Shown: one piece after another, positions 1 to 28,971 of the stretch
Position numbering within the stretch: position 1 is the stretch's first letter
How the letters are laid out: every line of letters begins with the position of its first letter
Virus record (IMG/VR): IMGVR_UViG_3300025131_000222
Coordinates: 1-33,719 of that record
Origin: a virus
DNA: 33,719 nt
Reading direction: 5' to 3' (one strand)
Notes under the pieces: generated by a model
Told to the model about the DNA's origin: nothing
Seen by the model: the letters and a program-made list of their open reading frames with translations, nothing else
The model's database searches: none
Position numbers and translations under genes: made by a program

Positions 1-1534
1 TTGTTGCAATACCAACATTCTTAGTAGTACTAACTCCTATAGAATTAGAAGCCCAAGTTCCACCAGCTCCAACACTTACAGTAGAAAACTTAAACTTATG
101 TCCAGATGATTGAGAAGTATCAACCTTTAAATACATTCCATCATAAGCACTAATATTAGTAGCAATACCAGCAATATCATCCAAATATTGTAAATCTACT
201 GCTCCACCACCACCAAAAGTTGCTAATTGTTGAGAAACTCTATTAACAAATAATTTATAATGTTGTTGTAAATCTGCTAAGGTAGCAAATTTCTGGTCTA
301 AGGGAGTAAGGGGATCTTTATAAGGTCCAACAGATTGTTCTTCATTGGGAGGTATATTAAGAAGACCTTCTTGAACACTCCTCAACTCTTCAACAATCTT
401 ATATAATTCAGAAATATTAAGACTTTTCTCTTCAATTCTTTTATCAATTACAGATAAATCTTTTTTCAAATCCTTAATAGGATTATCATAATATTTTACT
501 TCGGGAAGGTTATCAATTTCTTCTTTTAATCCTTCAAAATAAGTTGTAAGAAGTTTATTCTCATGATGATTTTTCTCTTTAAAAACATCTATTTCTTTCT
601 CAATATTTTGCTTGGTCTCATTAAGCTTACTTAATACATTTTTCTTTAATTTCCTATCATCATCCTTAAATTGATCGTGATGATCCCAAATTCTTATAGC
701 AGCTTCTTTTAATTCCTTATAAATCTTATCTTTAGTATCTACTAAATCTTCATTAAGTTTTTTAATATCTACCTTTGATTCAAATTCTTTAGTTTCAATA
801 GTTTCTGAAAGTTCATTAACTTCCCTGTCTATTCTATTTTTAATAGATTTTATATTATCTCCAACTTTTATAAAATCATCATCAATTACACTAAAAGTCT
901 TTCCAATCCAAGAGAAATCTGGAACTTCATTAACTTGATTAACCCATTTTGGGAAAGTTGGGATTTCATCCCTAATTACCTGAAGTTCTTCTTTTATAGT
1001 TTGAAGTTCTTCTTCATAATACTTTGGTTCAGGAAGATTAGTTATTTCCTGTTGAATAAAATCTATCTTATTCTCAATATTCTCTACTTGCTCATCATAA
1101 TATTTTATCTCTGGTATATCAGCAGCATTTTGATTTATTTCTGTTCGTACTGAATCAATCTGTTCATAAATTGCTTCTATTTCATGTTTAGGTATCTCTG
1201 CTCTTACTCGATTTATTTCCTCTTCAAGTGCTTCTAATTCTTTATCATAATATTTAATTTCAGGAATATCTGGAATAGATTCCCTAACATTATTAACCAG
1301 ACGAACTAATTCTGACCATTCAGGCGCTTTTACAACATCTGTTACTTCTAGGAAAGCATTTCCTTCTGCATCATCAATAGTTTGATTGTCCTCTTCTATT
1401 ACTTCAGGACTAGTAAACTCTTGAATTGATGGTAATTCTTCTTCTGTTAAAAAATCACTAATAGATGGCAAATCATCTGAACTGTCAGAATAATCTTCTA
1501 TTGAAGGTAAGTTTTCGTCATTAATATCTGACAT
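1..1534 (-). CDS. Partial coiled-coil, fibre-like structural protein (C-terminus beyond the window)
   Basis: The reading frame is open from an ATG at 1534 to the left edge (511 codons seen, no stop), so the C-terminus is missing. It follows gp16 by 48 bases. Residues 1-50 are acidic and hold three short motifs of the form LPSI-x-[ED]-[FY] at about 9, 22 and 34. Residues 70-390 are charged, heptad-like coiled coil (Glu/Lys/Ile/Leu rich) with four copies of [IL]PE-x-KYY[DE] around residues 90, 140, 167 and 343. A GGGG hinge at 441-444 leads into a LQYLDDI segment and a glycine/serine/threonine-rich beta region resembling marine T4-like fibre and virion proteins. I infer an elongated virion component, perhaps a fibre or whisker; the exact role is unknown. 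T4 has gene 17 directly after gene 16, so this gene is an addition at that site. Confidence 0.75.
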   Translation of the reverse strand, partial: MSDINDENLPSIEDYSDSSDDLPSISDFLTEEELPSIQEFTSPEVIEEDNQTIDDAEGNAFLEVTDVVKAPEWSELVRLVNNVRESIPDIPEIKYYDKELEALEEEINRVRAEIPKHEIEAIYEQIDSVRTEINQNAADIPEIKYYDEQVENIENKIDFIQQEITNLPEPKYYEEELQTIKEELQVIRDEIPTFPKWVNQVNEVPDFSWIGKTFSVIDDDFIKVGDNIKSIKNRIDREVNELSETIETKEFESKVDIKKLNEDLVDTKDKIYKELKEAAIRIWDHHDQFKDDDRKLKKNVLSKLNETKQNIEKEIDVFKEKNHHENKLLTTYFEGLKEEIDNLPEVKYYDNPIKDLKKDLSVIDKRIEEKSLNISELYKIVEELRSVQEGLLNIPPNEEQSVGPYKDPLTPLDQKFATLADLQQHYKLFVNRVSQQLATFGGGGAVDLQYLDDIAGIATNISAYDGMYLKVDTSQSSGHKFKFSTVSVGAGGTWASNSIGVSTTKNVGIAT

Positions 1535-1979: not shown

Positions 1980-2987
1980 CTAAAATACACTTCCATCAAA
2001 TCCAAAGTCATCACCAACCTCAATAAGATCTGCATCCGCACTAGTGATCTCATATACTTTTGCTCCTAAAACATGCTCTTGAGCAGTAGTATTAAATTGA
2101 CCCCTCTTGACTGTTAAGTCATTTCCAGAAATCTTATCAATATAAATGTTCTCCTGACCAACGTAGATATTAGTATTAACTGTAAGTGCTTCAGCATTAT
2201 CTACTGTGATAACAGTTTCAGTCAAATCAACATTCTCAGACAAGAATGTCTTATCATCACCATCATAATCCTTAGTTGCCTTAGGAACAACACTATAAGT
2301 AACATCCCTATCATATGCACCAGTTGCTCTGTTACCAGCAATATATCCAATTTGAACCTTCCTAACAACGTCACTAGATACATCAGTAACAGGACCATAT
2401 AGGTAAGTTTTAGCAGTAAATCTTAAAGTATAAAGAAGTGCCCTTCTAGTATCGAAATTACCTTCATAATCATCTTCCATAGTAACTGAATCAAGATTAA
2501 CAGCTACATCTTTTTTATCATTTGCATTATCACCAGTCAGAAATTTAATAGGAATTTGATATGCCGGTTGAAAATAAGGAAGAATTTGTTCTATAATTTG
2601 TAATGCATCATCATTCAACTTTGTCATTACACTTAATTCAATATTCATATTATATGGAACTGGAAGATATGCTTTCTTTACTTGGGTTCCATCACTAGGA
2701 TTAGTTACATAGAATTGTTGTGTCTGAGTAGATTTTCTAGTAGGATCATATTGTAAACCATTGAATTCAAATGACATTCTTGGAAGAGTCATCTGAATGG
2801 GTTTATTTAAATCTGCTTGCTGCTCTAGTCTGGCAAGAAATTTTTGAGTTGGCCCATAAGCAAGAGGAACTTTGATAACACTTACTGTATTATCATTATT
2901 CGTATGCTTGATCTCCAATCCATTGAAAAGAGAACCAAAAGATATAATAACAGATCTAAAAATCTCGTTATAAAAATACTCAAACAT
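1980..2987 (-). CDS. gp15: Tail sheath stabiliser / tail completion protein gp15
   Basis: In T4, gp15 forms the terminator ring that caps the tail tube and sheath and joins the tail to the neck. The N-terminal 240 residues match this family: a FEYFYNEIFR start, the PLAYGPTQKFLARLEQ segment (41-56), the MTLPRMSFE strand (66-74) and the EDDYEGNF-RRALLYTL segment (171-188). The protein has 335 residues against 272 in T4. The excess is one module at about 248-314 (IYVGQENIYI, then TVKRGQFNTTAQEH), inserted before the conserved acidic tail EVGDDFGFDGSVF. The same module type occurs in the DUF4815 protein and the giant protein. A 44-base gap separates it from gp14 and holds no clear promoter. Confidence 0.92.
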   Translation of the reverse strand: MFEYFYNEIFRSVIISFGSLFNGLEIKHTNNDNTVSVIKVPLAYGPTQKFLARLEQQADLNKPIQMTLPRMSFEFNGLQYDPTRKSTQTQQFYVTNPSDGTQVKKAYLPVPYNMNIELSVMTKLNDDALQIIEQILPYFQPAYQIPIKFLTGDNANDKKDVAVNLDSVTMEDDYEGNFDTRRALLYTLRFTAKTYLYGPVTDVSSDVVRKVQIGYIAGNRATGAYDRDVTYSVVPKATKDYDGDDKTFLSENVDLTETVITVDNAEALTVNTNIYVGQENIYIDKISGNDLTVKRGQFNTTAQEHVLGAKVYEITSADADLIEVGDDFGFDGSVF

Positions 2988-3031: not shown

Positions 3032-4465
3032 CTAAGGCATTCCAAAAGGATTGGTCTGAGTGAAATCTATAATATCATCTGCTGCTGATTCTATTACATC
3101 ATTATCTGCAAATGGATCTACCAAATCATCAGTATTAACCTTCCTAATTGTATAAGTGGCTCCAGAAGATTGTCCTATAATTACTTCCCCACTACCAAAT
3201 GTTCCAGCAACAATCCCAATTTCAAGTTGATTATTATCAGCATCCCATTCCTTAACACGTGCCTCAGTTCCACTATCAATTCCTTTAACAACTTCATTAA
3301 AGAGGAATGTTCCTTTGCCCATAGTGGCACCTACACCAGCAGGATTTTGAACTGTTACTATACCAACATGAGGTTGAGCAGCACTATATCCAGTGCCAGG
3401 ATTGATAATATATGCTGTAGTTAGTATACCTGCTACATTAGCATGAGCGATACCATATGCATAATGAGCAGTAGGACCACTAAATGCTGTTCCAGGTTGA
3501 CCAAAGGTAATAGTTGGATTAGCAGTATATCCAGCACCAGGAGTACTTGCGATACTAATAGTTTGAATAGATCCAGTAGTTGTAGCAATTCCCACAGTTG
3601 CTGCTGCTCCAACACCACCTCCACCTTGAATAGTTACAGTAGGAGCTTCTGTATATCCAGAACCTGCATTAGTAAGTAAAATAGCAGCAACTTTGCCTCC
3701 AAACAATCCATCACAATTAACAAAATCATTAGTTATAGAAGCAACACCCACCGCGGTGGTTCCACCTGCAGGAGCAGAAGAGAATCCAATAATAGGTGGC
3801 ATAGTATAACTATTACCCATATTGGTTATAGTAACTCTATTAATAGCACCACTGCTTGCTATAGAAACTGATGCTGCTGCAGTAGTAGCTGTTCCTATTA
3901 AAGTAAGAGTTTGAATATAACCTAGTTGTTCTATCTCATCATCAATAGTATCAATACCAGTATCAATAGTTTCATCCTCATATCTATAGAGTTCACATCT
4001 CAATTGATAAACATAATTCTTTCTTAATTGATAAAAAGGTTGCTCATGCTCTACATACTTAATTTCAAATAACCTATCGCCTAAAGGAAAATATATAAGA
4101 TCTCCTTCTTTAGGTCTAGTTGATAACTCAACATTAGGTAAATTCTTAATTAAAGGTTGAATATAAGTTTCCCATCTATCTCTTGAAATAATCAAGGTAA
4201 GATCATCTTGCTCTTGTATTCCAAATTTAGAAAGAATAGTTCCTTGACCACCATATCCCTCATAATTATCAACATATGCTTCTAATGGATATGCATCATC
4301 AAATTTTGACTCAATAACTTCTTTTATAACAGTAGCTTTGGAAACATATTTACGAGGCATATAATAGCATTCCACGCCATACATCTTCAATTGTTCATCT
4401 ATAAGATTCTGAAGTAGTCCTTGTTCGCTTTTCGAACCATTAAGGAAGTATGGATTAAGTACCAT
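3032..4465 (-). CDS. gp14: Neck protein gp14 with a large repeat insertion
   Basis: gp14 forms part of the neck joining the filled head to the tail. Residues 1-185 carry the family signature: NPYFLNGSKSEQGL at 4-17, the YYMPRKYV region near 34-41, GDLIYFPLGDRLFEI at 121-135, and EQPFYQLRKNYVYQLRCELYRYEDE at 141-165. The conserved C-terminus DPFADNDVIE...DFTQTNPFGMP is intact. Between them (about 187-443) is an insertion with four glycine-tyrosine repeats (NSYTMPP 218, GSGYTEAP 268, GAGYTANP 310, GTGYSAAQ 357), followed by a different GEVIIGQSSGA module at 426-436. Total length is 477 residues; without the insertion it would be about 220, near T4's 256. The gap to gp13 is 4 bases. Confidence 0.92.
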   Translation of the reverse strand: MVLNPYFLNGSKSEQGLLQNLIDEQLKMYGVECYYMPRKYVSKATVIKEVIESKFDDAYPLEAYVDNYEGYGGQGTILSKFGIQEQDDLTLIISRDRWETYIQPLIKNLPNVELSTRPKEGDLIYFPLGDRLFEIKYVEHEQPFYQLRKNYVYQLRCELYRYEDETIDTGIDTIDDEIEQLGYIQTLTLIGTATTAAASVSIASSGAINRVTITNMGNSYTMPPIIGFSSAPAGGTTAVGVASITNDFVNCDGLFGGKVAAILLTNAGSGYTEAPTVTIQGGGGVGAAATVGIATTTGSIQTISIASTPGAGYTANPTITFGQPGTAFSGPTAHYAYGIAHANVAGILTTAYIINPGTGYSAAQPHVGIVTVQNPAGVGATMGKGTFLFNEVVKGIDSGTEARVKEWDADNNQLEIGIVAGTFGSGEVIIGQSSGATYTIRKVNTDDLVDPFADNDVIESAADDIIDFTQTNPFGMP

Positions 4466-4469
4466 AATC

Positions 4470-5336
4470 TTAACCTATCAAATCTAAAGGTGGAAGTTCA
4501 TAAGTACTGAGCATGCTTTGCTTAATTTCATCAATTTCTCTTTGACCATCATCATAAAGTTGTCTTCCATTAAATTCAATACCACCAGGAAGTTTTACAC
4601 CTTGGAATTTAATAAGATTTTGTCCCCATTGCTTCTTAAATAATGCAGTAGTATAAGGCTTTAAGAACGAATCATTCCACACTCTTGGAAAATCAGCAGG
4701 ATCTACAGTCCTCCAACAATCAATGATAATAAAATCACCAGCATTAATGTCACTCCAATCAACATCCATGTACAATCTATCTTGTCTCTGATTAAATCTA
4801 ATTTGCTTATGAGTATTTAAGAGGAAATTCATAGTTTCCAAATAACTCATTGTCATAGAATATGATAATAAGTCAGTCTGTCCCCAGTAATAAATATCAT
4901 TCAAAAATAATTGATATTTAAAACTAAACATGTTGCTAACGTTCATTGATTGAGCGTTATCATATTGAAAGATTTTATTAATTCCTATAACTGCATTGGG
5001 AATAGGTATATAATTACTATTTTCGTACCAATTAAAATCTGTACTCCCCTTAGTGGGCATACTTTGCGTAACAGTGGTAGTTGTTATCCCTGTTTCTGAT
5101 TTGCCAGATGGAGCTCCAGGAGGTCTTGCTTCTCCTCTCAAAATATCGTCATCTGTTATCTGATATTTCAAATAACACTGTTGAACCCCATCAAAATGTC
5201 TTTCATAAAAGAATTGCAGAGCATCATCAATCAAATCTTCGCACTGCTCTGAAGCAAGGTTAATGTCCAACACAGGAGCACCTAACTTCCTTAGCACGTA
5301 TTCTTTAAATTCGGTTCGTGTAGTAGGTTGCGCCAT
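4470..5336 (-). CDS. gp13: Neck protein gp13
   Basis: gp13 forms the ring, with gp14, that connects the head portal to the tail. The protein has 288 residues against 309 in T4. The N-terminus matches the family: TEFKEYVLRKLGAPVLDIN (8-26), then an acidic helix with DLIDDALQFFYERHFDG. The C-terminal third has the characteristic segment ALFKKQWGQNLIKF, then GVKLPGGIEFNGRQL (about 232-262). Unlike gp14 and gp15 it carries no repeat insertion; only a short Ser/Thr/Gly-rich loop near 75-100 looks variable. AAAGGA lies about 15 bases before the ATG. A NATAAATA motif at 5359-5366 could serve as a late promoter for gp13-gp16. Confidence 0.92.
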   Translation of the reverse strand: MAQPTTRTEFKEYVLRKLGAPVLDINLASEQCEDLIDDALQFFYERHFDGVQQCYLKYQITDDDILRGEARPPGAPSGKSETGITTTTVTQSMPTKGSTDFNWYENSNYIPIPNAVIGINKIFQYDNAQSMNVSNMFSFKYQLFLNDIYYWGQTDLLSYSMTMSYLETMNFLLNTHKQIRFNQRQDRLYMDVDWSDINAGDFIIIDCWRTVDPADFPRVWNDSFLKPYTTALFKKQWGQNLIKFQGVKLPGGIEFNGRQLYDDGQREIDEIKQSMLSTYELPPLDLIG

Positions 5337-15543: not shown

Positions 15544-18500
15544 TTAGGTGTAAGCTGTGTATTTAAGATCATTAAACCTCTTCACCACACTAGAGGTAGA
15601 AATTCCACTCCCCGGTGTACCAATACCAGTCATGGTATGAGCATCAAAACTCTTTGGACCCACTCTCGCTTCAGAGTTAATCTTACCCCAACTAAATTGT
15701 CCTATGAAAGGAGAAGTAGTATAAGCAATTCCAATATTATAACTATCAATATTAACAAATACTCTTCTCACATCAGTTGAGAACCCAATAGTTGATCCAG
15801 CAGTCACATTAACCATAGTTCTTGTTTCTACACTCTTAACCCTGTATACAGCATCAAGTTGAGTAGTTCCAATTCCAACTGTAGTAGTACCATCCCCAGA
15901 TTCTGTTGCGAAAGTACTCCCAATAGATGCATTAGTGTCAAAAGCTACAAAGTAATCATCTGTACCCAATCCACTTACTGTCACAGCAGTAGAAACAATA
16001 TTAGTATCTCTTAAATAAGAACCTTGAGGAATAAAGAGGTCAAAATAGAATTGTTGCTGTGATCCAGAAGTTGTAGTTCCAACTCCAACGATTACACCAG
16101 AATCACCTTCATAAGAATCTACATTAATCTTTTCTCTCTCTATAATAGGAGGTTGAATAAGAACAGCAGGAGGATTGGTAGAAGTATAAGCGAACCCAGT
16201 ATCTGTTCCGCCATAAGAAATAATAACAGAAGTTACAGTTCCAGCACTACTTATATTTGCTGTTGCTAACCCTACTCCAGTACTACCACCACCCCCAACG
16301 GGATTGGAAATAGTAACAATAGGTGCAGCAGTATATCCAATACCACCACTACTAATGACAATAGAGGAAATTGTTCCACCAACAGAAACAAGTGCAGTAG
16401 CTGCAGCGCCAGTTAATGTATTTTGATCATTTATTTCAATAATATCTTGCCAGGTACTTCTTTGGTTATCATTTTCAATTTCATTCTTAGGATTAAAAGA
16501 AGGTATTAAATCATTAACATAGAATGCTGTAGTTCCTAAACCTACAGAATTAATAAGATAAGATACTGGACTAATTAAAGGTTCATAATGAATTCTATCT
16601 TTTCCAATTTTGGTATTGTCTGACATAATATCAACTGTCTGTTTGCACCATGTAACTGGTCTACCAACAGTAATATCTGTAGTAATTCCAACACCATTAT
16701 ATAAATTAGTTTCAACTGTATCAATAGTGTTGATTCCAGTAATGATTCTAGGATCTTGATCCAGAATTACGGTTTGGCCCTTTAATGGACTATATCCAAT
16801 ATCTAATGTGTCACCCTTCTTCACAGTATCTAATACATCCTTGAAAACAACATCAACATTTCCAGCGCCTTTATAGAAGAGAATCTTAGAACTATCTCCA
16901 ACTGCTACATTTCCATTTTCCAAATATGCACCCCTAGGAGATTCTGAGAAAGTAATTACACTTCCTCCCTCAAATTCATATCCAACTCCAGGTTCTTGAA
17001 GAACATCATTAATAAAGACTAGTAAAGTATCTTCTACATCAATAGCAGATCCTTTAGAAGCCTGAATAGAAACAGTTTCTCCATTAACTGAAAGTCTAAA
17101 TGCCTTTGTGGTTCCATCGAATTGAGAATCTAATTTATCCAACACTTGTAGTTGTCCAAGTGACCAACCATTAAAACTATCTGTAAAGATATTTTCAATA
17201 GTTAATGCAAATTCTGCAAATACATTAGTAGTAGTATCTGTAGGAATACCAGTGGTTCCTCCTACAGGAAGTGTTAAAATTTCCCCATTACCATAACCAT
17301 ATCCAAAATCTCTTATAGTGAAATCAACAACACTAGATCCTTGTCCTACTACAATATCAACTGTAGCACTCTTACCTACCCCAGATTGAGATTCTGCACT
17401 ATATTGAAGCATAATATTGTCATAACTTAAAGGTTCATCAATAACTATCTCAACTGGTTGAGAAACAGTTCCACCTCTAGCATAATGATGATCTCTGGTA
17501 GATATACCTGTATTAACTTCAAACTGAGTATCGCTAATAATTCTATTGATTGGAGTGCCATTAAAGGCAGGATCTACACCTGTAGCAATTCCTGTTCCAG
17601 CACTACTGGTTCCTTGTCTAGGAGCAATAATAGCAGGTTGAACTATTCCCCCAGTCTTATAGAAAGTTGGTACAGTTGAAGTTCCCACATTAACTTCAAA
17701 TTCTCTAGTAGTATTAACATTAATAACCTTCATTCCATTGAAGAAAGGATCTCCTCTTCTTGGATACTTGTGATCTGTAGCATATCCATCTCTAGAACAG
17801 TCAAATGTCAATGATTCTTCAGCAATCTTAACACTAGTTCCTGTCTTCAATGTATGAGCACCAATAGTCAAAGCCATTACACCAGTAGATGCATTATAAG
17901 TGGCAGTAGTAATGCTGTGATTAACAATAGTAGAAACTCCAACATTAAATCCAATTGTATCTGTAGTTACACTAGTAATTGCTGTAAATATGCCTGCAAT
18001 AGAATCACTTGTTCTGGGATAAGTATGCTCAGTTCTATAAGCATCCATAGCACAAGTAAGTGTCAAAGAATTAAGATCAATCTTAACACTATTGGAAGTT
18101 GTAAGACCATGACTTGGCATAGTCATAGTTACTATTCCAATTGATGGAGTATAAGCAACATGCTGAGGCGTAAATGTAGCACCCGAATCTGCTAATACCG
18201 AATGAGACTTAGCTCTTACAAACTTATGCCCATAATTACCACCGCTTTGAATAGCATTTGTTGCGGTCCCACCTTTCCAAGTATGAGTATATTGCTGACC
18301 AGCATTAGCAAATCCAACATTCAGAGTAATAGTGGTAGCAGTAGTAGATGCAATTGAAACAGCAGTATCATAGAATGGATCTTTTGCTCTAGGATAGAAA
18401 TGAGTACTCACTCCAGAATCAATAGCACAAGTGAATCCCAATCCAGTTAGAATAACAAAATCTTTAGTCTTGCTGGCATTTAATCCATGAACAGTTGAAG

Positions 18501-21500
18501 TAGTAACTGTCATCACACCACTAGTATTGGTGTAAGTTGCAATGCCCACAGATACTGAGGGGGCATATTCACAAGTAAAGGCAATACCAGACAATAGAAT
18601 CTGATCACCAGCATCCAATCCATGCTTCCAATTAGTAGTTACAGTAGTCATTCCTGTAACAGAACTATATGCCACACCAGATATAGATCTTGGAATATAG
18701 AATTTTGGATCACTAGTAATAGCAACTGCAGTAATATGACCTTCACTGATGGTGGCTGTTCCAATTGGAACTGCGGATGCAATACCGGTATTATAAGTCT
18801 GAACACCAACAACTACTGTACCTTGAACACCTGACCTATAACCAGATCCACTATTACCAATACTTACACTAGTAATAGTTCCTGCAGATCCAACGACAGC
18901 AGTTGCTGCTGCTCCCACTAAAGGTTGATAAGCGAATCCAGAAGTAGCTGCTACTGAAACAATCATCCCACCTCTTGGGAATTCAGCTCTACTGGGATCA
19001 TATCCATATTCTCTAATATCTCCACTAAAGGTGATAGTAGAAACACCAGGATCTGCTTCATTAATAGTATAATTATTAGGTAAATTATCTTGCTCTCCTT
19101 CTGGAAGTTGGAATACTCCATTAATCAAAATAACTGCATTATTTGTTGAGAATCCAGTGGTATTTGAACCATCAGCCTTTAGAATAAAGTCACTCTTAAT
19201 TCCTGTAAATTGATTAGAAATATCATCAAAGACATAATTGCTAGCATATGTTTCTTCATTAGTTCCTTCAGCAGCTCTTCTCATAAAAGTTCTACCTTGG
19301 AAAGTAGAATTAGTGGTAATTCCTACCCAATCCCTATCATCTGGTTGAGCAGTAGAAGTGCTTAAAGGAACTTGACCATGAGGAGGTTCTGAGAAATTGA
19401 GGGTATTATCAACAATCTGATAATTGCCAGCCATCTTAGTGATAAGTGCTCCAGAAGTATGGATAGCAATAGCACTTCCCATCTTACCTCTTTCAACTTC
19501 TATTCTGAAAGTTGCGCCCACACCGATACTTTCAATAAGCATATATTCCTCATCCATCTTAATGATGTCTTGAGAAGCAATAGAAGTAATTCCTGTAGTA
19601 AGGAACTTATCTTGGAAAACAATATTTTCTCCCAAAGTTGTAGTAACAGCAGTAGCTACCAGAGGAGATTGAATCATGTTATCAATGCATAATAATGCCT
19701 TTGTATTCTGTTTCTTGGAGGTAATAGTATGAGATTCACCAACACCAACAGATCTAAGTTCAAAAGTAGTAGGATTAGATGCTAAAGCATCTTCTGCACT
19801 ACCTGAAAATCTTAATTTCCCATCATCAACTTTAACCACATATAAATCACCAGGCAACTTATCAGTTGTTCCAATTCCAGCAACTACAGTTTCATCGATT
19901 CCAATGGACATAGTTGTGCCCGTTCCAGGCCAACCATATTGAACATTTTCCCCACTAACCCAATAATGGTCTGCAATTCTTATATAATTTTCTGTTGTAT
20001 CTGCAATTCCAGCATCACTTCCATCAAATATCCTCTTAAAGATTGCATTTCCATCATGATTAAGAGCAAACTGAGTTTGAAGATTTAATTTAGTTCCACT
20101 ATAAGATCCATAGTTGGAATGAATAACAATATTATCTGCAGGCATTGCTGAATCATTGCTATTATCATTATAAACCTGCATATCAGCACCAAATGCTCTC
20201 ACCTGAACAGCAGTAGAAGTATTAGGAGTATAAGTGATATTAAGCGCAGTACTTCCAGAAGCAGAAATTCCAATTTTACCTATACTTCCCCCAGTTCCCA
20301 CATTGCCATATTCTACAAGTACTGCTTCTTGATCAGTTCCTTGTTTAATGCATCCTATTTCTAATAATTCATAAAGATCATTAGTAGTATCCTTCACAGA
20401 AACAACATAATATCCGGCATCATAAGGAGTATCAAAAGTAGCAACTGTAGTTGCTGCTAAAATGGTTGTTGCTGCTATAGCAACATAATCTGAACTTAAT
20501 CTAGAAGCAGTAAGAGAATAAGTACCAATTCCAGTTGCTGTATCTGCAATAGCAACAATAGATGCATTACATGTTACTTGTGAATCATAAGATGAGATGA
20601 AATCTAATTTGAGATTTGATGCATCCAAATAAGCATTAAATGTTCCAAATCCAGTAAAGACTGTGCTATCTACATTATCAATATTTCCATATTCCTGTAA
20701 GAATACAACTGAATCATCATGAATCATATTGAATTCTTGTGCAGTATAATTATTACTGCTATCCTGAACCATTGCTAAGACTTTTGCAGCCCTATAAGTG
20801 TTAGATATAGAAACAAGGGTGCCTGTAACACCAGCAGCAACTGTTGATACTCCACTATTAATATTAACAACATCGCCCAATTGAGCAGTAGTAGTAACTC
20901 CACTATAATTGTTTAGAATACTGAAATTGAGAGTAGACATATCATAAGTTCTAGTCTCATAATTATTGGGATAGAAAGTTAAATCCCAACCAGTAGAGGT
21001 GTTGAGATAACTGTAATATCCCAGATCATCAACAGACTCAATAGTTGCGTATTGGGCAACATAACCTAATGCTTCATTTTGAACAACACCTACAACTGCA
21101 AATTGTCGTTCATCAGTATAACTTCTATCCTTCACATAAGTTATTATCTTACTATAAGTATAGTTTGAATTACCTGCTCCTACTTTTCCATACTTACTAG
21201 TTCCTTCATTACTATTAAAGGAGGAACTAAAATCATCTATAGTAAGAACTCTATTTCCAACAGATTCATAATAATCACTTATAATTCTATTTTCAAATCT
21301 AATATCAGTAGAGAAAAAAGATCCATTTATATAAACAGTACCTTCACTAACATAGTCAAAATTATATTCACAATTTAAAGAACCTTCACTAATAACATCA
21401 ACCACAACCTCAATATTACTGTCATCAGCTCCTGCAACTAGTTGAAATGGATTTTCTTGTTCGCTTATAACTTGTAAATCAGCAAATTTTTCAAACCCAG

Positions 21501-24500
21501 ATGTATGATTAAGAATACTTACAGGATCATCCCAAGTTTCGAAAGGAACTTTAGAACTAAGTGAATAAGAGAAGTTTTGATAATATTGATTATCAGGCAA
21601 CTTCTGCATACTATTATTCAAGAATCCAGTAATCTTTTGCCATCCATCGATTATAGTTGCACCAGCTCCAGTTTTAATAGTAGAATTGAAATTAATTTTA
21701 TTTCCAATTAGTCCTTGAGTATTGGAACTTAATCCTTTAACTGTCTCACCAACACTATATTCTTTGCTAACTGAAACTTTTAAAAACTCAGTTTTGTTAT
21801 TCCAAGACTCTACAACACCAATAGTTTCACCATTAGTTACATTTTCCCCAATTGCAAAATTATTTTTCTTCAAGACTGGATTAAAGATTGGGAATTGATT
21901 CTTAGATATTACTCTAGCATAAGAAGTCTGTGATAAGACTGCTCCAGGAACCTCTCCAGACCCTAGATGATCTTCTAGACTATATTCCACCCAAGCACCA
22001 CTTCCACCCAACTGAGAGTCAACTGCAGTGACGTCAAAAAGAACGTAATTATAACCAGCAGAGTCATAACCCTTTCCAAGTGTAGCCACCCCAACATTAA
22101 CATTTTCAACTAAAATAGGCTCACCTACTTTATAATGAAAATCTTCAGCATCACTAAATGAAGCATTAAGATACAGTCTTACTGTCTTAGTAGCATCAGT
22201 ATAAGAAAGTGAAGTAATTCCAACTCCATTAGAATTATTAATGGGTAAGATGGTAGGAGGGGTATTATAGATTCCTGTGGGGTTATATAAAATATTAACT
22301 TGATTATCACCTAATTCATATTCTATATCCGCCTCAGTAAGGACTTCTTTAGTATATCCATCAATAACAATCAAATCTGGTGCTACTAGATAATCTTTAC
22401 CTGCAGAAGTAACACCAATACTCTTAAAGGAAGATAATGGTTCTACCTTTAAAATTTCTGGAAGATTTGCAACTCCTCTTAAAGTTTGATCAGAAGGATA
22501 TGCCCATCCAATTCCATTAGCATCCCATTCAGTTGCCAAGATAGATCCTACATTCTTACTTTCTGCTTCTAAAAGAGCTCCTGCACCTAAAGTACTAGTG
22601 ATACTAGCAATTCCTGGTAAATTTTTATAAGAAAATCCAGTATTAGTAACTTTTACTTTCTTAATAGTCCCATTAGCTGTAAGAGAAGTAGTCTCATAGG
22701 TTGGAGAAGAATCAGTAGAACCATATCCTGATTTGAGAGGAGGTCTCTTAAGATTATAGGTAAATGTAGTAGTTCCAACTCCTACAACATTCTGTTGTCC
22801 ATCATAGAGAGTCTTTACTGCATTAATTTTAGTATAACCATAGGATTCCCTATCAATGATCATTTCACTTTTGATATTGGGAATAATATCGGGATTCTGT
22901 AAAGAGAATTTATACCATAGATTATCAGGAACATTATCTTTAAATTCTAAAGTCAAATTAGCAGTAGTGGTTATTCCCGGATTTCCACTCTTGGTAACTT
23001 CAAATGCTGATGTAGATTTAGAAGTCCAGAATTGACTACTATACCTACTATCACTATAAAGATTTAAATCAAAAGCAGAATATGTAACACTATTTTGAAT
23101 AAAAGCTAAAGTTGAATGTGATAAATCAAATTTTAAAGTTTGATTTTTACTAATTTCAATTAAAGGATTAATTCTACATATAATTCCAGCAGATTCTCCA
23201 GATATATTAATAGGAACTCCATTGGTTACATCGATTTCTAAATTAGCTAATTTAATTTTATCTGGAGAATCTACTATAACAAAATACATTCCCTCATGCT
23301 GAAGGTTAGTCATAGGAGAGTCTGACTTATAGATTACCTTATCCCCAGTATTAAATCCATGATCACTTAGAGTAATAGTATTTTGAGCAACATCTACATC
23401 TCCAGTAGAAAAACTTGTGGGGTCAAATACCATTCTTCTATTATAATCATCATATCTAACATCTATTGTTTTAGTATTTTTGGGATTTAAATCTATAAAG
23501 ACAGTATCTCCTTTAGACAATCCATGAGCAGTAGATACGGCAACAGTAACAGTGCTAATACTTACTTGAGCAGTTAAGACATCATCAAAAGAAGTCTTCA
23601 GACTATGATAATTGCCTGTTCCTACTGATGTGAAGTATAACAATCCAAGATCTGTACCAATACCAGCATATCCACCACCAGTAGATGCTAATCCAACAGG
23701 ATTAGTAGCCAATCCAATAGTATCCCTAGTAAGAGGAGCAACATAAAGAGTTGCATGATCTGTTAAAGGTGCATAATGAGGACCGGGAGTAGTAGTTGTA
23801 ATTCCATTCCAAGCAGAAATAGCAGTTGCAACATCTCCATTATTCAATTTATTAACATTATAAGTAACTTTATCATTGAGTTTTAATCTATGATCTGGGA
23901 GACGGAGAGATCGTGGCTCAAGGAATATAGAAGCAACTCCAACTCCTGGATTTCCAAAAACAATGGTGGTTCCAGCTCCAGTAGGAGTAACTGTTCCTAG
24001 TCCAACCGTTTCGGGAGGATAGAAATAGAATTCCTCATTTACATTGAAAGATTTAGTAGTTTTAGAAAGTCCTACATCAATCCTAAACTTCCTAGGAATT
24101 TCAAATAATGCTCTACTGCTAGTATAAGCAATTCCAGAAGTTTTTGTCCCCTCAACTTCTCTAAGAACTCTAATTCTTTCACTCTTTTTATCAATATTTA
24201 AAACCTTAACCTTTTCAGTTCCTATTCCTAGAATATCATTAGGTCTAATATGTGGATAATGTAAATTACCTCCAACATAGAAATAAGTAACTATACCAGT
24301 AGTGGATGTATCACCTATCCCCAAATTCAATATAAAATTATCAGATCTTACTCCAACCTCAAATTCCCCACTACTTACTGGATAATGAGTAGAAAGGCCT
24401 GTAATGTTTACTGCATCTTCATCACTGAGGGGGTGTGGGGTAGTACAAAAACCAATTAATTGATCAAAACTATTACTACCAAACTCCACATCAGTAATCT

Positions 24501-27500
24501 CTGACGTATTAGTAGTAACAGTTATAATTTTCTTTCCACCAATTTTCTCAACTTTTGCTCTTGCTCCACTTCCAGCAGTTCCACCATTATCAAAGAAAAT
24601 TTTATCTTTAACTTGATAATTATCTCCACCACTAATAATTTTTACTGATTCTACATTTCCAACAGTTGCTGCTTCAACATTAAGAGTTTGTTGTTTTAAA
24701 CTATTAGAATTAAAAATATAATCATATCCACTCTTAGATGCATCTAGATTATAAGGAGATGTATTCCTTAACCAAGTATGGCTTACTATATCATATTCTT
24801 GTTGATTAGAAGAATTTGTGAAATTAAAATCAATAGGTTCAGAATGATAACTTTGTCCAATTAAATAGGGGAAAACAGGAGGTCTAGATTTAGCAAATGG
24901 TAAAATTCCACTATTAACAGCATCAATAGTAGCAAAATATGCATAAACACCATTAGGATAATCAGGAGTTACACAAAATCTTCCATTATGGACGTCCAAA
25001 TGTCCTTCATCCTCGAAACTATAATCTTCTGTGAAAAATCCTTCCTTGTATAATCCTACATCAGGTCTATTGGTGGGATTAACTTGTAATTGATACCCAG
25101 ATTGCATTCTGGTAATAGAACCACCACTAGGAGTGGCATAACCATAAGGACCATAAATGGGATTTCCATCATATGCCCATCCAATAATGGGAGAATGATA
25201 TTTACTATCTTCTTCTTCTCCAGTAACAACATCTCTTCTTAAATCTGGATTTCCATATAAAATTTTTCCTTCAGTTATTCCGTATGTATTTTCTCTCAAA
25301 TAACGAGGAACATATATGTATCCATACTGCAAAGAAGTATTTGAAATATTATTACTTAAGAATGTATCATCCGCTGAAATATTATTAAAATCTCTTTCAA
25401 AAGCATTAATATTCCATCTTCTAATATCTACATCAGTAACGGCATTTTTACCTGCTGCTTCAACTTTAATAGAAGATTTACCCTCTTCATATCCTATACC
25501 ACTGTTAATTATCTTAATTTCTATAAGTTGCCCATTATTAATAATAGGAGTTAATCTAGCAAAAGATCCCACCCCACTAAGTACAAGATTTGGAGGTGAA
25601 TTATACTGACTACCGTTAGAAGTAATAACTATATCAACAATTTTACCATTACTAATAACCGGACTTACTAAAGCACCATTTCCACTATAGAAATCAATTT
25701 CTGGTTGTCTATCCAAATTAAAAATTTCAGAAGAACCATATCCAGTTCCATTATTAGTTAAATCAATAGAGTTAATTTGGCCTCTAAATCTTGGCTGAAT
25801 CTTAGCTCTAAAATCTTGGCCTGTTAAAGTAGCAATACCAATATTGCCATCAATAGTAACAGTAATAGGTTTATAATTAAAAGATCCTGTTCCAGTAGAA
25901 CCTAAAGAAACGTAGATTTTATTATTTAAATAATAATTTGTTGTACTACCACTTCCTACTAAACATAGTCTAAAATTATCATCATCTAACTTAGAAACAT
26001 AATAATCAGTAGTAGTAGAAAGTCCAGATAACGTATTAGACCCTCCTTCATAACTATATCTGATAGTTTCCCCAGTTTCATATCCGTGATTAGTGATCTT
26101 AATTAAATTACTAGCAGTATTAATTCCACTAACAACAATCTCTCTCTTCTTATTTTGATATCCAGAACCAGAATCAGTTACAACTATATTGGTTACTATA
26201 TTCTTTTTATTTGCAGATTGAATATTTTGTATGCCTGTTCCATAATTTGTAAATTCTATAGTATTAACGCCCACAACAGCGTCGCTATAACTACCATGAA
26301 GTTTAATCTTAGAATCATTAACAACTTGTACAAAATAAGCAGAATTAGTAACTAGACCTACAAGAGCGTCCCCCCCATTTGTCTTATAAATGATTTTTTC
26401 AGAAGGAGCAAACTTATGATAAGTGGAGAAACCTATAGATGCAGAAGTAGTACCAATACCAGATAATCCACCATCTGTAGAAACCGCTATATTACCACCT
26501 GCTCTTTCTGCATTAAAAGAAACTGTATGAACAATATCAGTTATAATAGCTTCTGCAGAAGCAGTCTGTATAGGATTTCCTCCGCTAATAGTAACTATAG
26601 GAGCATCAATATAATCAAATCCTTTATCTACTACTTTGATCTCTTCTAAACTACCTTCAACTGCAGATATTCCAGTAAGACCAGTTCCAACAACATCAGA
26701 AACATGGAAAAGAGGAGGATTAATTATATCATATCCACTTCCACCATCTATAATATCCACATTTTTTACATCACCATAAATTATTTGATCTCCAGATTTA
26801 TAATTAATGATTTCTACGCCATTAAGTAAAATTCCGGTATGTCCAGTATAAGTCTCATAAGAATCATCCTTTTTAAGAGGATCAATAACTTTTCTATAAA
26901 GACTTTGAGGAGATATTGATTTTTGATAATAAGGATAATAGATAAATTTATTATTAACTACGTCCCCAGAAGGAGTAATATACTTTTGTTCATATAGATC
27001 TGATCTGCTTCTAGAAAGCTTAATACTAGTAGCATCTACTCTATAAACATAGTAGACCCCTTGATCCATATTATCAAACTTACTGATGGAAGTAGAAGTA
27101 AGAGTTCTCTGATAAATGAGAGTAGTAGTTACAATATTTCCTGCCTCATAATAAACACCATTACCAGTATAGAATCCATGGTCATCAGTTCCATCAAAAG
27201 TGATGATTTCTCCATTAGCTCTTCCTGAGAAAGATTTTATTTTATCATAAACGTTTAAATCTACATCTTCACCCCAACTAGGAATAGAATTAGATGCTAC
27301 TAAAACTTCTCCATCAAATTTGGAGTATGTATTTTGAACATTAGCAATAGACTGATTAATTAAAGTATGATTTTCTTGATTACCCTTTAATAGTTTATTC
27401 TCTACTCTATAGTTGCCATTAAGATCAATACCGCTAGCCAAAACAGCTTCAAATCCTATTCCGGAGGTTTTCTTAATAACCCTTCCACCAGTAAGAGAAT

Positions 27501-28971
27501 CAAATGCGTCAGTTACAGTAATATCATATCCTGGTCTTAAAATGTTTTCATCATGAGTACTAAAAAGATACTTATTCTCAGTAGCATCAATTAGAGAAAC
27601 CTTATTAATATCCCACTCGGTTTTAACGTTAAAATTCCAATTATCAGATCTAATTACATCAGATTCTATTCCCAAAGATTGGAGTTTAATAGTATCATTT
27701 ACATTATACAAATATGTTGGTTCATCTAATTGAAGATCTTTAAGAGTAGTAGTAAATCTAACTTTAATTTGAGTAGATGTAGTAATGCCAACATAAGCAT
27801 ATGAATAGTCATCTAAATGTATATCTTCTTTTCTCTCAATTCTTTTAGTTAAAGTAACTCCAGCACCTGTTAGAACGTCGAAAAATTGATTAGAACTTTT
27901 ACTTCCATACTTTAATTTAAGTTGCTTTCCATCTTCATCAAGAGTATCTAATTCTCCAGAAGGAGGAAATCCAATAGTGGAATCAACATCTAAAACTGTA
28001 GTTCCAGATCCAACAGTAGTTAAAAGTTGAGTTTTTGGATTAGGTTTAAACTTTCCAAAAATAGTTCCACTACTTAAGTCAATATCTCTTTGATATCCAG
28101 CATCAATACTAATTTGATAATATTCTCCGTCTCCATAAAGCAAATTCTGAACATTAGTTACTGTTCCTCTAGATTGAGTGCTATCTTGGAAAAGAGTTAA
28201 ATTCTTAAGATCTTCAGGATCGCCACTTATTTTTTCAACAACATAATCTTGAGTAACCACATAATCAGTATCTGAAGGACGGAATAAAAATTCACTAGGT
28301 TTGAGAACTTTTACTTCATCTCCATACAATGCTCTGAAAAGTATTTTAAATCCTTCATCAGTTCCTTTGGCATCATAAAAACTACTAGCACCAAAAAGAA
28401 AATTTCTTTCATTGAGATCACCACTCAATTCCCTTTCAGAAAATCCAGGAACAACCTGACGCTTAAGTTTTCTGAAAAATTCCTTAAGGAATAGAATATT
28501 TAAATTCTGTATCTCACTCCCCTTCTCATGCTTCTCAGTAACAGTTTCTTTAAATACTAACTTATCTGGGGTATCACTCCCAATGTAGGTTGTAATGCCA
28601 CTGAACCCCCTTATACAGTTCTCAAAAGAGGTTGTAGTCTTATTACCATAGAATATGATCTCATTATCAATTTTTATAATACCATTCTTTTCTGGAAATC
28701 CTTGCGTAAAATTAGTAGAAGCGTCTGTACTTACAGTGGTATCTACAAATGAAACATCATCACCCAATAGAGTAGAATCTTTAAGATTATATAATTCATC
28801 AACTTTTACATATTGATCCATATTTTGCAATAGATCATATGTTCCACCATCTATCTCTTGAGACAAATAATATTGCTGTAAAAATTCCCCAAGAAGAGGA
28901 AAATCTTCCTGAACATACGTTGGGAGTTGGCCAGTAACTAGGTCTTGGAATTGGATTCTATCTATTGCCAT
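15544..28971 (-). CDS. Giant repeat-rich baseplate-region protein (4475 aa) in the gp7 position
   Basis: This gene takes 40% of the window. It lies between gp6 and gp8 where T4 has gene 7 (wedge initiator, 1032 aa), so it is probably the gp7 counterpart or its replacement; I see no direct motif match to T4 gp7. The N-terminal 260 residues (MAIDRIQFQDLVTGQLPTY...) are non-repetitive and resemble the conserved start of marine homologues. Seen further along: several H-G-x-x-x-G-D/E repeats ending in YYV, like the profile often called E1-FCCH in phage tails; a YHYH-type domain at about 1255-1390; GxGY units; three EYG repeats at about 2597-2935; two copies of a fiNgVxQ.P fibre-like domain (about 3249 and 3944); C-H-YPR repeats at about 3434-3760; and GxGYTxxP units near the C-terminus. 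No transmembrane segment or enzyme active site is evident. Confidence 0.85.
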   Translation of the reverse strand: MAIDRIQFQDLVTGQLPTYVQEDFPLLGEFLQQYYLSQEIDGGTYDLLQNMDQYVKVDELYNLKDSTLLGDDVSFVDTTVSTDASTNFTQGFPEKNGIIKIDNEIIFYGNKTTTSFENCIRGFSGITTYIGSDTPDKLVFKETVTEKHEKGSEIQNLNILFLKEFFRKLKRQVVPGFSERELSGDLNERNFLFGASSFYDAKGTDEGFKILFRALYGDEVKVLKPSEFLFRPSDTDYVVTQDYVVEKISGDPEDLKNLTLFQDSTQSRGTVTNVQNLLYGDGEYYQISIDAGYQRDIDLSSGTIFGKFKPNPKTQLLTTVGSGTTVLDVDSTIGFPPSGELDTLDEDGKQLKLKYGSKSSNQFFDVLTGAGVTLTKRIERKEDIHLDDYSYAYVGITTSTQIKVRFTTTLKDLQLDEPTYLYNVNDTIKLQSLGIESDVIRSDNWNFNVKTEWDINKVSLIDATENKYLFSTHDENILRPGYDITVTDAFDSLTGGRVIKKTSGIGFEAVLASGIDLNGNYRVENKLLKGNQENHTLINQSIANVQNTYSKFDGEVLVASNSIPSWGEDVDLNVYDKIKSFSGRANGEIITFDGTDDHGFYTGNGVYYEAGNIVTTTLIYQRTLTSTSISKFDNMDQGVYYVYRVDATSIKLSRSRSDLYEQKYITPSGDVVNNKFIYYPYYQKSISPQSLYRKVIDPLKKDDSYETYTGHTGILLNGVEIINYKSGDQIIYGDVKNVDIIDGGSGYDIINPPLFHVSDVVGTGLTGISAVEGSLEEIKVVDKGFDYIDAPIVTISGGNPIQTASAEAIITDIVHTVSFNAERAGGNIAVSTDGGLSGIGTTSASIGFSTYHKFAPSEKIIYKTNGGDALVGLVTNSAYFVQVVNDSKIKLHGSYSDAVVGVNTIEFTNYGTGIQNIQSANKKNIVTNIVVTDSGSGYQNKKREIVVSGINTASNLIKITNHGYETGETIRYSYEGGSNTLSGLSTTTDYYVSKLDDDNFRLCLVGSGSTTNYYLNNKIYVSLGSTGTGSFNYKPITVTIDGNIGIATLTGQDFRAKIQPRFRGQINSIDLTNNGTGYGSSEIFNLDRQPEIDFYSGNGALVSPVISNGKIVDIVITSNGSQYNSPPNLVLSGVGSFARLTPIINNGQLIEIKIINSGIGYEEGKSSIKVEAAGKNAVTDVDIRRWNINAFERDFNNISADDTFLSNNISNTSLQYGYIYVPRYLRENTYGITEGKILYGNPDLRRDVVTGEEEDSKYHSPIIGWAYDGNPIYGPYGYATPSGGSITRMQSGYQLQVNPTNRPDVGLYKEGFFTEDYSFEDEGHLDVHNGRFCVTPDYPNGVYAYFATIDAVNSGILPFAKSRPPVFPYLIGQSYHSEPIDFNFTNSSNQQEYDIVSHTWLRNTSPYNLDASKSGYDYIFNSNSLKQQTLNVEAATVGNVESVKIISGGDNYQVKDKIFFDNGGTAGSGARAKVEKIGGKKIITVTTNTSEITDVEFGSNSFDQLIGFCTTPHPLSDEDAVNITGLSTHYPVSSGEFEVGVRSDNFILNLGIGDTSTTGIVTYFYVGGNLHYPHIRPNDILGIGTEKVKVLNIDKKSERIRVLREVEGTKTSGIAYTSSRALFEIPRKFRIDVGLSKTTKSFNVNEEFYFYPPETVGLGTVTPTGAGTTIVFGNPGVGVASIFLEPRSLRLPDHRLKLNDKVTYNVNKLNNGDVATAISAWNGITTTTPGPHYAPLTDHATLYVAPLTRDTIGLATNPVGLASTGGGYAGIGTDLGLLYFTSVGTGNYHSLKTSFDDVLTAQVSISTVTVAVSTAHGLSKGDTVFIDLNPKNTKTIDVRYDDYNRRMVFDPTSFSTGDVDVAQNTITLSDHGFNTGDKVIYKSDSPMTNLQHEGMYFVIVDSPDKIKLANLEIDVTNGVPINISGESAGIICRINPLIEISKNQTLKFDLSHSTLAFIQNSVTYSAFDLNLYSDSRYSSQFWTSKSTSAFEVTKSGNPGITTTANLTLEFKDNVPDNLWYKFSLQNPDIIPNIKSEMIIDRESYGYTKINAVKTLYDGQQNVVGVGTTTFTYNLKRPPLKSGYGSTDSSPTYETTSLTANGTIKKVKVTNTGFSYKNLPGIASITSTLGAGALLEAESKNVGSILATEWDANGIGWAYPSDQTLRGVANLPEILKVEPLSSFKSIGVTSAGKDYLVAPDLIVIDGYTKEVLTEADIEYELGDNQVNILYNPTGIYNTPPTILPINNSNGVGITSLSYTDATKTVRLYLNASFSDAEDFHYKVGEPILVENVNVGVATLGKGYDSAGYNYVLFDVTAVDSQLGGSGAWVEYSLEDHLGSGEVPGAVLSQTSYARVISKNQFPIFNPVLKKNNFAIGENVTNGETIGVVESWNNKTEFLKVSVSKEYSVGETVKGLSSNTQGLIGNKINFNSTIKTGAGATIIDGWQKITGFLNNSMQKLPDNQYYQNFSYSLSSKVPFETWDDPVSILNHTSGFEKFADLQVISEQENPFQLVAGADDSNIEVVVDVISEGSLNCEYNFDYVSEGTVYINGSFFSTDIRFENRIISDYYESVGNRVLTIDDFSSSFNSNEGTSKYGKVGAGNSNYTYSKIITYVKDRSYTDERQFAVVGVVQNEALGYVAQYATIESVDDLGYYSYLNTSTGWDLTFYPNNYETRTYDMSTLNFSILNNYSGVTTTAQLGDVVNINSGVSTVAAGVTGTLVSISNTYRAAKVLAMVQDSSNNYTAQEFNMIHDDSVVFLQEYGNIDNVDSTVFTGFGTFNAYLDASNLKLDFISSYDSQVTCNASIVAIADTATGIGTYSLTASRLSSDYVAIAATTILAATTVATFDTPYDAGYYVVSVKDTTNDLYELLEIGCIKQGTDQEAVLVEYGNVGTGGSIGKIGISASGSTALNITYTPNTSTAVQVRAFGADMQVYNDNSNDSAMPADNIVIHSNYGSYSGTKLNLQTQFALNHDGNAIFKRIFDGSDAGIADTTENYIRIADHYWVSGENVQYGWPGTGTTMSIGIDETVVAGIGTTDKLPGDLYVVKVDDGKLRFSGSAEDALASNPTTFELRSVGVGESHTITSKKQNTKALLCIDNMIQSPLVATAVTTTLGENIVFQDKFLTTGITSIASQDIIKMDEEYMLIESIGVGATFRIEVERGKMGSAIAIHTSGALITKMAGNYQIVDNTLNFSEPPHGQVPLSTSTAQPDDRDWVGITTNSTFQGRTFMRRAAEGTNEETYASNYVFDDISNQFTGIKSDFILKADGSNTTGFSTNNAVILINGVFQLPEGEQDNLPNNYTINEADPGVSTITFSGDIREYGYDPSRAEFPRGGMIVSVAATSGFAYQPLVGAAATAVVGSAGTITSVSIGNSGSGYRSGVQGTVVVGVQTYNTGIASAVPIGTATISEGHITAVAITSDPKFYIPRSISGVAYSSVTGMTTVTTNWKHGLDAGDQILLSGIAFTCEYAPSVSVGIATYTNTSGVMTVTTSTVHGLNASKTKDFVILTGLGFTCAIDSGVSTHFYPRAKDPFYDTAVSIASTTATTITLNVGFANAGQQYTHTWKGGTATNAIQSGGNYGHKFVRAKSHSVLADSGATFTPQHVAYTPSIGIVTMTMPSHGLTTSNSVKIDLNSLTLTCAMDAYRTEHTYPRTSDSIAGIFTAITSVTTDTIGFNVGVSTIVNHSITTATYNASTGVMALTIGAHTLKTGTSVKIAEESLTFDCSRDGYATDHKYPRRGDPFFNGMKVINVNTTREFEVNVGTSTVPTFYKTGGIVQPAIIAPRQGTSSAGTGIATGVDPAFNGTPINRIISDTQFEVNTGISTRDHHYARGGTVSQPVEIVIDEPLSYDNIMLQYSAESQSGVGKSATVDIVVGQGSSVVDFTIRDFGYGYGNGEILTLPVGGTTGIPTDTTTNVFAEFALTIENIFTDSFNGWSLGQLQVLDKLDSQFDGTTKAFRLSVNGETVSIQASKGSAIDVEDTLLVFINDVLQEPGVGYEFEGGSVITFSESPRGAYLENGNVAVGDSSKILFYKGAGNVDVVFKDVLDTVKKGDTLDIGYSPLKGQTVILDQDPRIITGINTIDTVETNLYNGVGITTDITVGRPVTWCKQTVDIMSDNTKIGKDRIHYEPLISPVSYLINSVGLGTTAFYVNDLIPSFNPKNEIENDNQRSTWQDIIEINDQNTLTGAAATALVSVGGTISSIVISSGGIGYTAAPIVTISNPVGGGGSTGVGLATANISSAGTVTSVIISYGGTDTGFAYTSTNPPAVLIQPPIIEREKINVDSYEGDSGVIVGVGTTTSGSQQQFYFDLFIPQGSYLRDTNIVSTAVTVSGLGTDDYFVAFDTNASIGSTFATESGDGTTTVGIGTTQLDAVYRVKSVETRTMVNVTAGSTIGFSTDVRRVFVNIDSYNIGIAYTTSPFIGQFSWGKINSEARVGPKSFDAHTMTGIGTPGSGISTSSVVKRFNDLKYTAYT
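17690..18670 (-). repeat. Tandem Cys/His-YPR repeats inside the giant protein
   Basis: Roughly four units, spaced about 55-120 residues apart, lie within residues 3434-3760 of the 4475-aa protein. Each complete unit runs HGL/HTL-x-x-G-x-x-V-x-I, a strand ending F-x-C (AFTCEY, GFTCAID, TLTCAMD, TFDCSRD), then H-x-YPR-x-x-D (THFYPRAKDP, EHTYPRTSD, DHKYPRRGDP), then a strand with I-x-x-NVG. The first unit lacks the HxYPR part. The recurring Cys and His are the most conserved positions. Confidence 0.75.
20165..21180 (-). repeat. Three EYG-type repeats inside the giant protein
   Basis: Three consecutive units of about 110-130 residues (residues about 2597-2935). Each has an aromatic start (YTYSKIITYVKD, NTYRAAKVLAMVQD, DAGYYVVSVKDT), a middle strand, an acidic EYG or AQYATIES-like element (FLQEYGNID, LVEYGNVG), and a closing strand such as LKLDFIS or LNITYTPN. 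The second and third copies are most alike; the first has diverged. Confidence 0.6.
24840..25200 (-). other. YHYH-type domain inside the giant protein
   Basis: Residues about 1255-1390 of the giant contain GWAYDGNPIYGPYGYA, then HLDVHNGRFCVTPDYPNG and FPYLIGQSYHSEP. This order of motifs fits the YHYH domain family (PF14240), which occurs in bacterial secreted proteins and in phage structural proteins. The signature that names the family is altered here to VYAYFAT: both histidines are replaced. The function of the domain in virions is not known to me. Confidence 0.7.

Follow-up and report, generated by a model that had tools for sequence, protein, structure and literature searches.

A four-unit repeat module in the neck protein gp14 of a marine T4-like phage, nested in a second domain of the protein

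Introduction

Neck proteins of the T4 type are recognized by a conserved core, and a gp14 that is far longer than its T4 counterpart raises the question of what the additional residues are, where on the virion they would sit, and what they might do there. Such a protein is encoded on a stretch of viral DNA of 33,719 nucleotides (IMG/VR record IMGVR_UViG_3300025131_000222, positions 1 to 33,719), denoted here as the window. The original prediction for this gene concerned positions 3130-3910 on the minus strand, corresponding to residues 186-446 of gp14. It proposed an insert of four GxGY repeats and an SGA unit between two conserved halves of the protein, which could form a collar or whisker-like projection in a phage lacking an evident fibritin gene. 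A literature search largely confined to papers outside subscription yielded no paper on a repeat insert in marine gp14, and neither a solved structure nor an assay of a marine gp14 was found.

The gp14 gene, its locus and its core

Judged by its sequence matches, the open reading frame at 3032..4465 on the minus strand (477 aa plus stop) is the gene of a T4-type neck/head-closure protein gp14. It matches phrog_460 (head closure Hc2) with an E-value of 8.2e-131 (437.2 bits), PF11649 with 2.8e-35 (122.5 bits at a cut-off of 25), and solved T4 gp14 chains with 8e-31, the latter over residues 2-169 only. Its neighborhood shows the gene order gp13-gp14-gp15-terS of the T4-type neck, with ORFs named by their PHROG/Pfam matches. 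The nearest named gp14 relative is that of Prochlorococcus phage P-TIM68, with 62.8% identity over the full length, and the window is therefore regarded as belonging to a marine T4-like phage of the P-TIM68 kind.

The N-terminal core (residues 1-177; 3935..4465, minus strand) is predicted to form a T4-like stopper barrel, whose model aligns with T4 gp14 (9lu7_M) over 135 residues at a VIA-align Z of 12.7; the best row outside T4 is the neck of phage Chi (Z 11.5). At the other end, residues 447-477 (3035..3127, minus strand) comprise a predicted helix (451-465) and an NPFG tail, the latter being conserved in marine gp14s. Of the two conserved halves originally described, only the N-terminal one (2-169) has a match in T4 gp14. 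Nor is the length more than doubled, as had been assumed: 477 aa compare with 256 in RB10/T4 (1.9-fold) and with 291-308 in four relatives devoid of repeats. The adjacent gp15 (1980-2987, minus strand) has about 90 residues beyond its PF16724 match (247-335), with residues 249-317 resembling the tail-protein family phrog_1101; the gp15s of S-PM2 and P-SSM2 are, by annotation, shorter than that of the window.

Repeat units and their nesting in the SGA domain

Residues 204-382 consist of four related units of about 40 residues each, with the approximate consensus xxGxVxxIxxTNxGxGYTxxPTVTISxPxGG. Unit 1 (residues 204-244; 3734..3856, minus strand as all following) carries GNSY at 217 and scores 38.1 bits when window sequences are kept out of the profile and 49.1 bits with the full profile; unit 2 (256-293; 3587..3700) carries GSGY at 268 and scores 44.8 and 49.2 bits, respectively. 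Unit 3 (about 296-335; 3461..3580) carries GAGY at 310 and reaches 14.8 bits for residues 296-325. Unit 4 (about 344-382; 3320..3436), with GTGY at 357, is placed by alignment A2 and scores only 1.8 bits; its detection by the profile in relatives such as P-TIM68 supports the alignment-based assignment. The full profile was trained on 31 units, five of them from the window and others from gp14s that were also counted with it, so that training sequences match by construction.

Four related units are hence present as predicted, three with a strict GxGY (268, 310, and 357) and the fourth with GNSY (217), and the anticipated spacing of 42-50 residues applies to the second and third intervals (42 and 47) and is exceeded by the first (51). 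Within residues 185-445, strict GxGY occurs three times versus a mean of 0.20 in shuffled sequences (P 0.00085), and the relaxed motif G.[GNS]Y four times versus 0.35 (P 0.00015). The leading glycine of each unit, including the weakly scoring ones, is invariant in 80/80 gp14s of alignment A2, down to 43% identity, while the distances between these glycines vary across the same 80 proteins (41-66, 38-47, and 39-72 residues). Across 10 diverse proteins, similarity is highest between units 1 and 3 (41.0), and unit 2 is nearer to unit 3 (37.0) than to unit 4 (35.1); an origin by duplication of a pair, with 1 resembling 3 and 2 resembling 4, is therefore weakly supported and was set aside.

The surroundings of the repeats were traced with a profile of the SGA domain (72 positions), which was built from 36 repeat-free gp14s only, its training sequences again matching by construction. 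In the gp14s of S-PM2, S-WAM1, P-SSM4, and S-CAM1, profile and alignment find this domain in one piece. In the window, the profile matches solely C-terminal of the repeats, starting at position ~12 (residues 383-440 cover positions 12-69, with 36.7 bits), and the remaining beta-barrel is assigned to residues 383-446 (3128..3319, minus strand); residues 183-203 (3857..3919, minus strand), ahead of the repeats, are taken as its first strand segment on the basis of alignment A1. As far as sequence comparison goes, the repeats are thus nested inside the SGA domain in these phages, and the SGA stretch (383-446), initially counted as part of the insert, is better described as the second domain of gp14 itself, unbroken in repeat-free gp14s. 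With the same profile, it was not found in the gp14s of T4-type RB10 and Methylophilales phage Melnitz. A different arrangement is seen in gp14s of the S-RIM8 type, where SGA positions 1 to ~25 precede the repeats and the remainder follows. Since the domain is split at ~11 in one case and at ~25 in the other, the same kind of module occupies two different loops of one domain.

Predicted structure of the insert

The AlphaFold2 model of the whole gp14 has a mean pLDDT of 76.4 and a pTM of 0.51, is least reliable within the N-terminal half, and shows low confidence in parts of the core, whereas residues 181-449 modeled alone reach 90.5 and 0.76 and are all-beta, with about three strands per repeat unit according to DSSP on the predicted model. 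These values agree with the original prediction of an ordered, modular beta region apart from the gp14 core, which may be either a beta-solenoid coiling continuously with one unit per turn or a chain of small beta domains; the structure prediction proposed as a check assigned the repeats neither to disordered sequence nor to the core.

Foldseek returned no solved structure for the insert model at E <= 0.001, and a Pfam search with the insert alone gave no match up to E 5. The top VIA-align row for the insert model is a baseplate-cup protein of Klebsiella phage KP1 (9f4a, residues 766-847; Z 8.6, 75 aligned). As the matched range extends over model residues 1..269 with just 75 residues aligned, a reading based on the range ends only, this match probably concerns the SGA barrel rather than the repeats. 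Matches to domain 3 of eIF2-gamma, EF-Tu, and the F1-ATPase barrel (Z about 5-6) were taken as a common small-barrel arrangement, and the single match of the repeat profile to PDB sequences (E 0.68) as chance. In BFVD, the gp14 model, in a part that the hits do not specify, is matched by predicted proteins from uncultured phages that are named as P22 gp10-like and DNA-stabilizing; the module may also occur in other head-closure proteins.

Probable position on the neck and proposed role

The best explanation, to which we assign a probability of roughly 0.6, is a gp14 built of three parts that bears an exposed repeat module serving the reinforcement of the neck or docking. Sequence comparison and models show these parts to be a T4-type stopper core, an SGA barrel in the C-terminal arm, which is lacking in T4-type RB10, and four GxGY units in a loop of this barrel. 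In the T4 virion, residues 178-256 of gp14 contact gp15 (PMC12270204). Because the repeats follow the core and the corresponding T4 segment binds gp15, the insert would most likely be located on the outer neck, at the joint of gp14 and gp15; this outward position is drawn by analogy with T4, whose C-terminal arm has no sequence match here. With six copies of gp14 per virion, as in T4, 24 units would be arranged around the head-tail joint, near gp15. They would most likely act through contacts at the exposed surface, either by reinforcing the neck or by docking fibers or host polymers. The neck can probably be built without the insert, since related phages do without repeats, and the insert is probably a modular surface decoration of the neck and not a true whisker. 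A precedent of this kind is phage 812, where the stopper has an external beta-sandwich domain and neck decoration proteins are proposed to reinforce the neck and to attach whiskers (PMC12886913).

A more specific role would follow if the module were a displaced fiber-docking domain akin to domain I of the T4 sheath protein gp18, which, in the absence of fibritin, holds retracted fibers against the neck. According to PMC3004832, domain I is an inserted, outward-facing barrel that binds the retracted long tail fibers, and the exchange G106S inhibits retraction; a resemblance to it would favor fibers as the partner for this reason. Residues 28-114 of the insert model align with the sheath protein of a Klebsiella phage over its residues 98-187 (9ev2; Z 5.0, 72 aligned, 22% identity), and residues 29-170 with residues 99-253 of T4 gp18 (3foa; Z 6.3, 75 aligned, 21%), a range that exceeds domain I (98-188); VIA-align itself warns that Z < 8 can reflect a common arrangement. 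In RB10, numbered without the Met, G106 is the first G of a GSNY motif, and S175 and A178 agree with this numbering. Compared by hhalign, the insert matches an alignment of domain I with P 0.0047, whereas three further segments of gp18 give 0.075, 0.32, and 0.66, but the reported probability is only 7%, and single gp18 sequences give weaker values (P 0.3 and 0.22 for RB10; P 0.033 for S-PM2). Repeat profiles score none of eight gp18s above 4 bits, the best value of the window-free profile being 2.1 bits. Moreover, S-PM2 has no repeats and is also without Fibritin_C, and the repeats therefore do not go hand in hand with the loss of fibritin. The link between domain I and the repeats is thus suggestive only, and we regard the displaced docking domain as unlikely. 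Less probable still is an extended version, in which marine T4-like phages devoid of fibritin and of its dock would have moved a fiber-holding module like domain I onto the gp14 ring, more than once and into two loops, so that the neck ring retracts the fibers. If the module did hold fibers, this would show how marine T4-like phages without fibritin control them.

Distribution, relatives in the baseplate, and rates of change

The insert was followed in 403 complete gp14s, window included, which represent the best 80 matches of each of five queries plus 19 regions of named or single-cell phages and are not a census; 12 of 415 had been dropped as incomplete, and start codons were chosen by script (that of ACG-2014d yields a protein longer than annotated). 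In this sample, 164 of the 403 gp14s have no repeats, 143 are of the window type, 86 are of the S-RIM8 type with two units at another loop, and two lack the SGA domain; eight more with four units each are ambiguous and probably of the window type. Among 18 marine records from the phage collection, four are repeat-free, seven of the window type, six of the S-RIM8 type, and one is without the SGA domain. By profile, the window-type proteins (n = 143) have four units in 131 cases, three in 10, and two and eight in one each, the gp14 of S-CAM9 having eight; the gp14 studied here is scored among those with three because its unit 4 has degenerated too far to be picked up by the profile. The S-RIM8 type has two units in 86/86.

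On a tree of the core only, inferred by quick search from 80 of 149 nonredundant rows with "other" rows treated as window type, and with T4, Melnitz, S-WAM1, S-CAM1, and ACG-2014f on long branches, the labels of repeat type require at least seven changes. The S-RIM8 type is scattered among repeat-free phages, with at least four changes forced by starred branches, while the window type is compatible with one origin. Related units occur elsewhere in the same phage, namely in a baseplate wedge protein of 4475 aa (15544-28971, minus strand), in which phrog_460 matches residues 4074-4259 (E 1.5e-20). There, the window-free repeat profile detects units at 772-808 (21.9 bits) and 4198-4236 (23.7 bits); a further one at 1145-1183 drops to 1.3 bits once the five window units are left out of the profile. 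In the reading favored here, the GxGY units are a general virion surface module, shared by gp14 with one baseplate protein.

Two sites of insertion, gains or losses that recurred, profile counts ranging from two to eight units, and kin in the baseplate form a pattern that near-neutral accretion would leave behind, i.e. the spread of a mobile beta domain among virion genes that is tolerated where it is harmless. Mean identity to the window in alignment A2 is 70% for the core, 45% for the repeats, 49% for the SGA domain, and 62% for the C-terminal tail. In comparisons of the window with two close relatives, dN/dS amounts to 0.09 and 0.08 in the core (2-177) and to 0.32 and 0.35 in the repeats, whose dN is 3.0 and 3.8 times that of the core. 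As estimated from these sequences, the repeats are changing faster than the core and yet are under purifying selection in both comparisons, and the window-type gp14s keep all four leading glycines in the 80/80 proteins mentioned above. Purifying selection and the retained glycines speak against accretion, which we hold to be improbable. The faster change of the repeats itself fits relaxed constraint as well as it fits surface contact. The history shows that a conserved connector protein can accept a fast-evolving module of the surface type more than once and at two sites, and natural relatives without repeats are ready controls.

Fibritin, gp13, and the whisker question

The remaining proposal is that the repeats form a projecting collar or whisker fiber in place of fibritin. 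In T4, fibritin is a trimeric fiber of 530 Å (PMC3004832) that binds domain III of gp13, residues 193-238 (PMC12270204). The premise that no fibritin is evident was borne out. Fibritin_C is unmatched in the window, a fragment of 33.7 kb, and in 7/7 whole records of relatives (six titled complete genome, S-SKS1 titled "genomic sequence"), RB10 being positive as the control (E 7.1e-36). The gp13 of the window (4470..5336, minus strand) has, according to the alignments, no segment equal to T4 gp13 193-238, and domain III is absent from 159/159 nonredundant full-length gp13s, window included, each filling 7/46 columns; RB10, outside the 159, fills 46/46. This is in accordance with a 2010 review, which counts wac as one of the genes that cyanomyoviruses lack (PMC2984593). 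The reason we offer for the lack of a visible whisker gene is that Fibritin_C and the gp13 docking domain were both missing wherever they were looked for in these phages. The long insert of its own in the S-CAM9 gp13 (L086:371-1492) is absent from eight other aligned gp13s.

The same review notes, as unpublished, a cyanomyovirus from St. Kilda that bears whiskers, and S-SKS1, whose name perhaps points to this place, has a four-unit gp14. This connection is a guess from the name, the S-SKS1 record says North Atlantic, and none of the papers listed in a search contained both names. S-SKS1 (L091 / L459) combines its four-unit gp14 with the absence of Fibritin_C and a gp13 without domain III. A whisker made of the repeats is nevertheless very unlikely and is not supported as proposed, as the insert is predicted to be a compact beta block of ~180 residues, far smaller than fibritin, with no segmented coiled coil of the fibritin type predicted in the all-beta model. 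Nor does the lack of fibritin call for a replacement by the repeats, which are missing in S-PM2 together with Fibritin_C and gp13 domain III, and in S-WAM1 together with domain III. Beside terS, an ORF open at the end of the window (2-1534, minus strand) matches the tail fiber protein family phrog_28263 and looks fiber-like and, by eye, coiled-coil-like; it is a fiber or whisker candidate of its own.

Comparison with known systems

With T4 gp14 (PF11649; PDB 9lu4-9lu7, 9mkb), the protein of the window shares the stopper core, its predicted fold at the Z of 12.7 given above, and the gene order 13-14-15-16, whereas T4 has neither SGA barrel nor repeats, as judged by profiles and the RB10 sequence, and uses its C-terminal residues 178-256 as an arm binding gp15. 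The short gp14s of Kyanoviridae (S-PM2, S-WAM1, P-SSM4, and S-CAM1) share the core, the SGA barrel, and the NPFG tail, but are free of repeats at 291-308 aa. In those of the S-RIM8 type, the barrel is likewise interrupted by units of this kind, though by two instead of four and in a later loop. Outside gp14, domain I of T4 gp18 is likewise an inserted, outward-facing beta domain with a weak structural and motif resemblance, but it shows no significant sequence match to the repeats. The beta-sandwich of the phage 812 stopper, as described in PMC12886913, resembles the proposed arrangement in being a beta domain on the outside of such a protein, although in another phage family.
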